Source of the DNA: Bacteroidales bacterium
GTDB lineage: Bacteria > Bacteroidota > Bacteroidia > Bacteroidales > UBA932
NCBI GenBank assembly: GCA_017561265.1
Contig: JAFZDJ010000002.1
Span: 1 to 64,000 of the forward strand
Direction of reading: 5' to 3'
Length of the DNA: 64,000 nucleotides
The translations under genes were made by a program, and so were the position numbers. This document shows positions 19,141 to 39,273 of this stretch, piece by piece; within the stretch, counting starts at the first letter, position 1, and every line of letters begins with the position of its first letter. The notes below the pieces were generated by a model. The model did not search any database and was not told where the DNA came from. It saw nothing but the letters and a program-made list of their open reading frames with translations.

Positions 19141-19149
19141 CGCCCCGAA

Positions 19150-19202
19150 AATGTGGAGAGATTTGACCGCTTGCAACCACTTGAAAAAATGCTAAAATGT
19201 TG
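19150..19202 (+). promoter_or_regulatory. SAM-II-like riboswitch aptamer
   Basis: The segment GATTTGACCGCTTGCAACCA followed by an A-rich link and ATGCTAAAATG closely resembles the SAM-II (metA motif) consensus GATTTAACC...TTGCAA...GCTAAAA as I recall it. GTGG (19153-19156) pairs with CCAC (19177-19180) as P1, and the GCTAAA segment is the 3' strand of the expected pseudoknot. It lies directly upstream of the SAM synthetase gene. Recognition is by eye; a covariance-model search would settle it. Confidence 0.8.
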
Positions 19203-19237
19203 ACAATATGTCATCAATGTTTTGTGTTTTTGTGTTG

Positions 19238-20716: not shown

Positions 20717-20819
20717 ACAAACATCAGGGACTGTGTTGAAGGCGACATGCCACCCCCGGCTAGGGGGTGCCTCCTGACAAGGAGGCGGGGGTCGCCGGAA
20801 CACAGTCCCTGATGTTTGT
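20717..20819. repeat. Cruciform-like palindromic element between metK and smpB
   Basis: Outer arms 20717-20737 and 20799-20819 are 21-bp reverse complements. Inside, 20741-20746 pairs with 20791-20796, and two inner hairpins follow: 20753-20757 with 20762-20766 and 20769-20774 with 20781-20786. It sits between convergent genes and can end both transcripts. Its layout (long arms around a C-run/G-run hairpin plus a CTCC/GGAG hairpin) matches the element inside miaA. Confidence 0.75.
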
Positions 20820-21365: not shown

Positions 21366-22487
21366 ATGGCAAAGAAACCTTTCACACCGATACCACCAAT
21401 GGCCGAACTGCCTCCTGCAGAAGAAATCAATGTCAAGGAACTTCTTGACAGATATCTCAGCGGCGAAATCGACCTCATATGCGTCCTGGGTCCCACCGCT
21501 TCAGGAAAGACCCGCTACGCCGTCAGCCTCGCCCGCCGCATCAATGCACTGCTGGCTGAAAATCTTCACGGTAGGCCGGATGTGCGGAAGGGTGCGGAAA
21601 GCGTGCTACCCCCCTGGCCGCAGGGGGAGGGACCCGCTCCGAAGGAGTGGGAGGGGTTCTTTCCACACCCTTCCGCACATCCGGCCGGCGCTGAAATAAT
21701 CTCCGCAGACTCCCGTCAGGTATACCGCGGAATGGACATAGGAACAGGAAAGGATCTGTCTGAATATGAAGAGATTCCGTACCATCTCATGGACATAGTC
21801 GACGCCGGCACAAAATACAACATATTCGAATACCAGCGCGACTTCGAAAAAGCATACAGAAACATCCGTGAACGAGGAGGCATACCTATCCTCTGCGGAG
21901 GCAGCGGACTGTACATCGAAGCTGCCACATGCGGATACTCCCTCCCCGAAGTACCTCCTGACCCGCAGCTGCGTGAAGAACTTGAGAAGCATACGGACGA
22001 AGAGCTCATAGCCCGACTGGCATCCCTCAAGCCTCTTCACAACAACACAGACTACGACACCCGCAAACGTCTCATCCGTGCCCTCGAGATAGCGATATAT
22101 GAAGCTGAACACCCTGTGGAACACACATCATATCTCCCGAAGAACACCTATTATATAGGCACACTCGTGACGCGCGAGGAAAGAAACGCCAGAATAGACC
22201 GCCGCCTTGACGCACGAATTGAAGAAGGGATGGTCGAAGAGATAAGAGGACTTATTGACGGAACACATCCGGCACTGGCACCTGAACACAAGCCGATTCC
22301 GGCAGAAGACCTCATATATTACGGACTCGAATACAAATTCGTCACCTTATATATAACAGGAGAAATCACGCTGGAAGAAATGCGCACCCAGCTCGCCACA
22401 GCCATCCATCAGTTCGCAAAAAGACAGATGACATGGTTCCGCGGCATGGAACGCAAAGGAATAACCATCCACTGGACCAATGTCTAG
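21366..22487 (+). CDS. miaA: tRNA dimethylallyltransferase with an in-frame palindromic insertion
   Basis: 373 residues. It transfers dimethylallyl from DMAPP to A37 of tRNAs reading UNN codons. P-loop GPTASGKT at 42-49; ISADSRQVYRGMDIGTGK at 112-129; GGSGLYIEAAT; C-terminal KRQMTWFRG. The usual length is about 300-315. The excess is an N-terminal extension of about 35 residues and a 38-40 residue insert between LLAEN (62-66) and AEIISADSRQ (109 on). The insert (residues about 70-107) is exactly the palindromic element at 21574-21686, rich in Pro, Gly and Trp. The frame stays open, so the enzyme is probably still made with a surface loop between the P-loop helix and the second strand. Activity is unproven. 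Confidence 0.93.
   Translation: MAKKPFTPIPPMAELPPAEEINVKELLDRYLSGEIDLICVLGPTASGKTRYAVSLARRINALLAENLHGRPDVRKGAESVLPPWPQGEGPAPKEWEGFFPHPSAHPAGAEIISADSRQVYRGMDIGTGKDLSEYEEIPYHLMDIVDAGTKYNIFEYQRDFEKAYRNIRERGGIPILCGGSGLYIEAATCGYSLPEVPPDPQLREELEKHTDEELIARLASLKPLHNNTDYDTRKRLIRALEIAIYEAEHPVEHTSYLPKNTYYIGTLVTREERNARIDRRLDARIEEGMVEEIRGLIDGTHPALAPEHKPIPAEDLIYYGLEYKFVTLYITGEITLEEMRTQLATAIHQFAKRQMTWFRGMERKGITIHWTNV
21574..21686. repeat. Palindromic element inserted in the miaA coding sequence
   Basis: Arms 21574-21599 and 21661-21686 are 26-bp reverse complements with one mismatch. Inside are hairpins 21610-21614 with 21623-21627 and 21637-21640 with 21644-21647, plus the 12-mer GGGAGGGACCCG shared with the element at 1-136. 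It is translated in frame as part of MiaA. Confidence 0.85.
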
Positions 22488-39147: not shown

Positions 39148-39220
39148 TAAAGACCATTACTAGAAGATGATACTATAATACTTGTACACAACGGACAGAA
39201 CCTCCATCACACCAAAAGAC

Positions 39221-39252
39221 AGAAAATGTTTTCAACATTCATGGGGTATTGC
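39221..39252 (-). promoter_or_regulatory. 32-bp operator-like repeat, copy 2
   Basis: Reverse complement of the sequence at 372-403 with one mismatch. It lies 13 bp before the -7 box TATATTTG at 39266-39273 and has the same AATGTT-gaa-AACATT core. Confidence 0.6.
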
Positions 39253-39273
39253 TGATCCAAATTATTATATTTG

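Follow-up and report, generated by a model that had tools for sequence, protein, structure and literature searches.

A family of palindromic elements spans an uncultured Bacteroidales genus, and one copy lies in frame within the miaA gene of the window, the 64,000-nt stretch of DNA analyzed here. Common to all sites are a core and ~12 bp of stem, and the outer stem is largely site-specific. We consider it probable that snap-back template switching largely makes the stem of this palindromic element and keeps its arms complementary, and that the element is translated as a loop. A fuller version of this reading, which we hold at slightly less than even confidence, is that mainly the ~60-bp double-hairpin core is inherited, and that copies make most of their outer stem from host sequence, keep their arms matched, flip in place, and in this way give conserved enzymes new peptide loops derived from the host.

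The miaA insert is a 113-bp palindrome in which an outer stem wraps two inner hairpins (Table 1). The first-pass annotation described a hairpin with 26-bp arms and further hairpins inside it, and all of these are present where it placed them, with 27 of the 28 outer-stem positions counted as Watson-Crick pairs. The RNA fold of the insert is calculated at −93 kcal/mol, compared with a mean of −56.6 kcal/mol for shuffled sequences (s.d. 4.3, z = −8.45), and none of 200 shuffled sequences reached its stability. A scan at gathering thresholds returned no Rfam match for the insert, and no tandem repeats were found within the 64-kb window.

Table 1. Features of the miaA gene and its palindromic insert (window coordinates)
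Feature	Position	Strand	Sequence or description
miaA, tRNA dimethylallyltransferase	21366..22487	+	373 aa; ORF open across the insert
Outer-stem left arm	21574..21601	+	GGCCGGATGTGCGGAAGGGTGCGGAAAG; inner part common to other copies, outer part site-specific
Conserved core, subfamily A1	21598..21662	+	AAAGCGTGCTACC...GGGGTTCTTT
Inner hairpin 1 (C-run/G-run)	21610..21627	+	CCCCCTGGCCGCAGGGGG
Inner hairpin 2 (CTCC/GGAG)	21633..21651	+	CCCGCTCCGAAGGAGTGGG
Outer-stem right arm	21659..21686	+	CTTTCCACACCCTTCCGCACATCCGGCC
MiaA peptide stretch across the insert			VRKGAESVLPPWPQ...FFPHPSAHPAGAEIISADSR

The MiaA protein of the window matches the Pfam family IPPT (PF01715) at 6.4e-62 and has relatives in the PDB (2qgn, 3d3q, and 2zm5). 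Its GKT and ADSRQ motifs are 64 aa apart (identical to P0001). This spacing is 22–41 aa in 19 of 30 related loci, namely those without a recognized element; the remaining loci comprise 10 with an element and one, L124, that was not parsed properly. Judged against the element-free loci, the protein has ~25–40 extra residues. The first-pass annotation put the addition at ~38 residues, with all MiaA motifs kept; the reading frame is open throughout and the motifs are intact. In an AlphaFold model built from a 49-sequence alignment, residues 70–104 have pLDDT values below 50 and fall between a helix (48–67) and a strand (109–113). The pLDDT is at least 70 at 275 of 373 residues, and residues 1–4 and 118–127 are low too. 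Going by this model, the insert most probably forms a disordered loop, with the rest of MiaA looking normal. The loop-bearing enzyme presumably has normal activity.

The loop between GKT and ADSRQ is a hot spot for insertions. Its occupants across the 30 related loci are core A, families B and C, or types D and E. Type D is a TTTCGAGCGA-type repeat (L108), and type E is a CGTC-like repeat of the IPGQAGND type (L106, and likewise L004 and L005). The list of MiaA homologues is skewed towards the query and was sorted with our own motif patterns; among the matches listed, 100 of 120 carry the core, in three reading frames, 11 carry family B, and 9 carry nothing recognized. The GKT-to-ADSRQ gap spans 32–129 aa in these homologues (1 of 120 not parsed). 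Equally long loops in all relatives had been named beforehand as a point against insertion. Many relatives do have them, but in most of those listed they are other copies of this or another palindrome, and short loops exist as well. The miaA copy in L006/L105 is a truncated element.

Searches beyond the window established the extent of the family. A 15-mer of the core was found at 6 places in 5 of 13 close genomes; the close loci (L001–L013) are assigned to Bacteroidales bacterium and come mostly from ruminant gut samples. Across 400 genomes from the genus, a fuller core pattern matched at 20 places in 15 genomes, with no match for the reversed-pattern control. These 20 copies and that of the window are all in frame, in miaA (9), aroE (9), and tilS (3). 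A translated search with a piece of tilS led to a sister subfamily in lpxB, hutI, argE-like, truB, and RluA-type genes, and the regions picked among the matches listed were in frame in 20 of 20 cases, one of which is cut off where its contig stops. With as many as 3 mismatches allowed, a 24-mer matched in 25 of 34 genomes (control, 0), at 0–7 copies per genome. In a family-wide search, G002 was the sole match among 249 genomes from its family, and the exact core 22-mer was not found in viral contigs.

We collected 80 distinct copies, which our own motif patterns sort into subfamilies A1 (21), A2 (40), and A3 (19). The core (~60 bp) is near-invariant across copies, with two short hairpins between CGTGCTACC and GGGGTT, a conservation owed partly to searching with the core itself. 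A1 copies have G-C as the innermost stem pair, and A2 and A3 copies have C-G. Hairpin 1 changes from CCC/GGG to CTC/GAG in A3. Hairpin 2 is highly variable in sequence and length, and in the copies listed it is mostly another self-complementary stretch. Among A1 and A2 copies, 60 of 61 are in frame in named genes (miaA, aroE, tilS, hutI, lpxB, argE-like, truB, and RluA-type), and the remaining one is at a contig end. Five A3 copies are in aroK (L295 included) and 14 lack a recognized gene; judged by the longest flanking ORFs, 8 of these 14 lie between convergent ORFs and the others are ambiguous. Pfam supports the identity of the host genes for eight representatives, although it resolves the hutI, argE-like, and RluA-type genes no further than Amidohydrolase, M20, and PseudoU_synth_2, respectively. 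The name tilS is motif-based, and the names hutI, argE-like, and RluA-type are partly so. The lpxB gene of L305 apparently retains only the 5′ part of an element, and in L302 the aroK ORF runs in frame through an A3 element as well as a repeat of the CHSERAKRVEES type.

The first-pass annotation read the miaA insert as a mobile stem-loop and suggested looking for the core inside genes of other genomes; that search yielded matches in nine housekeeping genes, including miaA. The element is inserted, in frame, and tolerated, as proposed, but it belongs to a recurring family rather than marking one event. No enzyme able to move it was found. Because copies are few (0–7 per genome in the 34 genomes) and occupy matching positions across species, we can only infer mobility; those matching positions also make it possible that the insertions are old and that their arms evolved later. 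Since the element turns up in many assemblies, an error of assembly is unlikely, and we attach next to no probability to an assembly or binning artefact at the palindrome. The core occurs in 25 of 34 assemblies, in frame in genes and with arms that differ between species, and recurs in the large majority of the MiaA homologues from the query-biased, motif-sorted list described above.

The outer stem is paired well beyond the part that copies share. Over stem positions 1–26 in 69 of the 80 copies, 1651 of 1794 positions are Watson-Crick pairs (92.0%), 57 are G-T (3.2%), and 86 are mismatched (4.8%), and arms mixed between sites give 40.2% Watson-Crick. At positions 14–26, the values are 88.5% for true arms vs 31.5% in the mixed-site control. 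The 11 copies left out (L006, L167, L243, L253, L263, L265, L266, L280, L285, L286, and L287) were set aside for truncation, contig ends, low score, or a register off by one base. With all 80 copies included, 87.9% of 2050 positions are Watson-Crick, 4.4% G-T, and 7.7% mismatched. Identity of the left arm between sites is 0.52 at positions 1–12 and 0.31 at positions 13–26, where composition alone predicts 0.28; pairing continues to about position 26, beyond the shared ~12 bp. By subfamily, identity at positions 13–26 is 0.31 in A1 (expected 0.27), 0.37 in A2 (0.29), and 0.25 in A3 (0.27). As the inner ~12 bp are semi-conserved and the outer arms of A2 exceed expectation, some of the stem may be carried along by the element.

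Filled and empty alleles reveal where some arms come from. In hutI, the filled allele L283 can be aligned to the empty allele L336 with a single 93-nt gap. Its 5′ arm, GCCCTCAGCTGGGGCGGT, is host sequence, present as GCCCTCGGCTGGAGCGGT in L336 with two differences, and its 3′ arm is an inverted copy of the 5′ arm with one mismatch. In aroE, the alignment of filled L170 with empty L138 likewise has a single gap, of 63 nt. L138 contains the 5′ arm, CCGAGTCATCTGACGAGG, as host sequence with one difference, and the 3′ arm is again an inverted copy with one mismatch. The 5′ arms of both filled alleles align to host codons of the empty ones, so that in both pairs the 3′ arm repeats the neighboring host DNA in inverted orientation. 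Direct duplications in the alignments of these two sites do not exceed 2–3 bases. Two AroE proteins (P0122 and P0123), 89–90% identical to the filled protein, are without the core and right arm and retain the left-arm residues wholly or partly, and in the aroE relatives L136 and L137 the site is taken up by 30 aa without the element. Instead of being ancestral, the empty state of L138 and L336 could have arisen by later loss.

The lpxB and tilS sites look different. The lpxB site spans 19–31 aa without a recognized element vs 55–79 aa when filled. Both arms are absent from the empty lpxB alleles L307 and L313 (19 aa) and from the empty tilS alleles L202 and L204. Since these alleles have neither arm, the whole stem looks inserted in the two genes, and insertion of the whole element would fit them better. 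Two simpler readings were dropped or narrowed. That the element carries all of its arms was dropped for the outer stem, given outer arms that are site-specific yet paired, and that the host supplies all arms was cut back by the empty lpxB and tilS alleles and by the excess identity in A2.

We propose the following sequence of events. At a short A-rich match, the core would be copied into a gene, where the 3′ end of the new strand (CTTTC or GTTTT) would pair with the GAAAG or AAAAC of that same strand. The polymerase would then snap back, copy ~15–20 bases of the freshly made host strand, and rejoin the template. The outcome would be an inverted copy of the host 5′ flank and with it a long, near-perfect stem (~26 bp). 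Repeated template switching between the arms would keep them complementary as they change and would flip the core in place, and insertions would persist if their overall length preserves the frame, they introduce no stop, and the resulting loop is tolerated. Snap-back switching would account for the inverted host copy, the near-perfect arms, the flipped cores, and the absent direct duplications. We infer the snap-back synthesis itself, as well as the source and direction of movement. According to the accessible text of PMC8604942, template switching homogenizes the arms of inverted repeats and inverts spacers, and according to that of PMC8794818, a single template-switch event can create perfect stems.

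The main competitor is a conventional miniature element of the RPE, REP, or MITE type that a transposase would move together with its full ~26-bp arms, which would later diverge by mutation, with compensatory change under selection for the hairpin. We regard it as rather unlikely. It would explain the two extra arms in lpxB and tilS, the recognizably common inner 12 bp, and the A2 outer arms that exceed the expected identity (0.37 vs 0.29), and a compensatory pair change does separate the tilS copies L081 and L169. It is harder to reconcile with outer arms in A1 and A3 that are near or at chance identity around a near-invariant core, with host sequence serving as one arm in hutI and aroE, and with direct duplications of at most 2–3 bases in the two filled/empty pairs. 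Furthermore, G-T pairs are rare (57/1794), unlike what slow compensatory drift would leave. In its favor, 12 of the 13 close genomes have Y1 transposase genes (PF01797), but the core was absent from the 13 Y1 loci examined (2.1–3.4 kb each), out of at least 34 PF01797 matches, and a link to RAYT genes was thus not seen at these loci. In L093, a Y1 transposase gene is flanked on both sides by a different REP hairpin (GCAAACCGCGTGCTCCCC...).

The length inside the stem is divisible by 3 in 51 of the 54 scored A1/A2 gene copies (range, 33–99 nt); the three exceptions, L011 and L104 in miaA and L165 in aroE, pair with a 1-nt shift. All five aroK copies leave a remainder of 2, and intergenic copies are mixed (6/1/4). 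Of the six frames, four occur among the 63 gene copies, read as RATPLAAGGG (23), CGQGGST (23), SVLPPWPQ (11), and PPAARGVARF (6). The core frame containing a TAG stop is used by none of the 63. Stop-frame avoidance by itself is weak evidence, as the stop-free frame KACYPPGRRGR is equally unused (0/63). The length rule points more strongly than frame use to selection for reading through the element, and the insert is presumably translated in the cell. T4 gene 60 and the byp elements of yeast mitochondria are examples of translational bypass with an in-gene hairpin, and the strong hairpin here resembles theirs. That the ribosome skips the insert, or that it is removed, nevertheless strikes us as highly improbable, because a skipped element would require neither the length rule nor the avoidance of stops.

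The core itself can be reversed. One aroE site carries it in both orientations (L163, +; L173, −), an instance of the spacer inversion between arms that characterizes template switching. Among the AroE homologues in the matches listed, sorted with our own motif patterns, 96 of 120 have one orientation, 15 the other, and 9 no recognized core. One orientation probably arose from the other. The two orientations at a single site bear on a further alternative, in which a regulatory RNA or DNA structure (pausing, mRNA stability, or a cruciform signal) is selected here and coding is merely tolerated. Such a structure would make sense of core conservation at the nucleotide level despite four reading frames, of inner hairpins that vary yet mostly remain complementary, and of the prominence of tRNA-modification hosts (miaA, tilS, truB, the RluA type, and trmB in another family). 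Yet occurrence is patchy, close relatives have empty alleles, no pathway common to the host genes is evident, and the miaA insert has no Rfam match at gathering thresholds. We therefore consider a regulatory role very unlikely.

Other palindromes and repeats were seen nearby and in relatives. Between metK and smpB (20717–20819 in the window) lies an intergenic palindrome with perfect 21-nt arms and a core of two hairpins, ATGCCACCCCC...GGGGG and CCTCCT...AGGAGG, of the same general build as the miaA insert, and L239 has a similar one. A SAM-II riboswitch (Rfam RF01726) is located upstream of metK (19147–19205). The window also contains two distant inverted repeat pairs, each 88% complementary, of 49 nt (361–409 and 39215–39263) and 33 nt (2659–2691 and 39168–39200). 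A second family, CCGTG(G)CCACCC... (L180–L196), occupies 17 places in 10 of 34 genomes and sits in the frames of miaA, truB, and a trmB-like gene, named from a motif; some of its copies are without a clear gene. The same loops of tilS, hutI, and miaA also hold in-frame repeats of the TTTCGAGCGAGCGAAG type (L081, L203, L359, and L108), and the hutI gene of L359 has three in succession.

In Rickettsia, palindromic elements (RPEs) reportedly lie inside protein genes, and they have Wolbachia counterparts. Mitochondrial double-hairpin elements are likewise said to have been described, by Paquin in 2000. Like RPEs, the present elements are palindromic and lie in frame within ORFs of conserved proteins (60 of 61 A1/A2 copies), with a product that is apparently tolerated. 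RPE copies are expected to be alike along the whole palindrome, whereas here the core and inner stem are common, the outer arms are largely site-specific (identity of 0.31 vs 0.28 expected at positions 13–26), and the phylum is another one. The first-pass annotation knew of palindromes within genes from Rickettsia and of none in Bacteroidota. The parallel with RPEs stands, but the accessible text of PMC3733652 reports REPs inside ORFs, truB included, in many bacteria and CGTC-REPs in Bacteroidetes, and it names truB as a host of RPE-type or in-ORF palindromes too.

The same source, as far as its accessible text goes, describes REPs as 20–40 bp long, high in copy number, and mostly intergenic, with GTAG REPs often near RAYT genes (PMC3733652). 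Our elements resemble GTAG and CGTC REPs as short palindromes found in ORFs, again including truB, and the intergenic REPs lie between convergent genes, as part of A3 does. Unlike REPs, they are ~110 bp long, number 0–7 copies per genome in 34 genomes, and have 60 of 61 A1/A2 copies in genes; only 14 of the 80 copies lack a recognized gene, and one more is at a contig end. With respect to MITEs, the terminal inverted repeats are common in the inner ~12 bp and near chance in the outer part, with a slight excess in A2, and no direct target-site duplication exceeds 2–3 bases at the two sites compared.

Quasipalindrome template-switch mutation, in the accessible text of PMC8604942 and PMC8794818, shares with these elements arm homogenization, spacer inversion, and perfect inverted copies of neighboring sequence. 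It is described there as acting on existing sequence or repeats, whereas here it would build a stem around a recurring, conserved core. The coding palindromes of Nematomorpha mitochondria are similar as perfect inverted repeats in protein genes with arms kept identical, but, in the accessible text of PMC6649704, both of their arms encode conserved protein and a shared core is not described; in the present elements, the extra sequence is the core with either one arm or both. The GC clusters and double-hairpin elements of mitochondria are comparable as small GC-rich hairpins of inferred mobility, yet they are organellar and mostly intergenic, and a host-made outer stem is not described in the accessible text of PMC4478555. 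No report of such elements in Bacteroidales was found in the accessible text of the open-licence literature matches listed. The site-made arms, the in-place flipping of the core, and the Bacteroidales setting appear to be new.

These elements touch on how palindromes enter genes without damage and how the two sides of a stem change jointly. With the same core at ~10 sites, filled and empty alleles, and both orientations, the gain of the element, the making of its arms, and its flipping become directly testable. For annotation, inserts of ~20–60 residues that place a common peptide in unrelated proteins are a source of trouble. For the conserved enzymes of this genus, the element would be a route to acquiring whole new loops.
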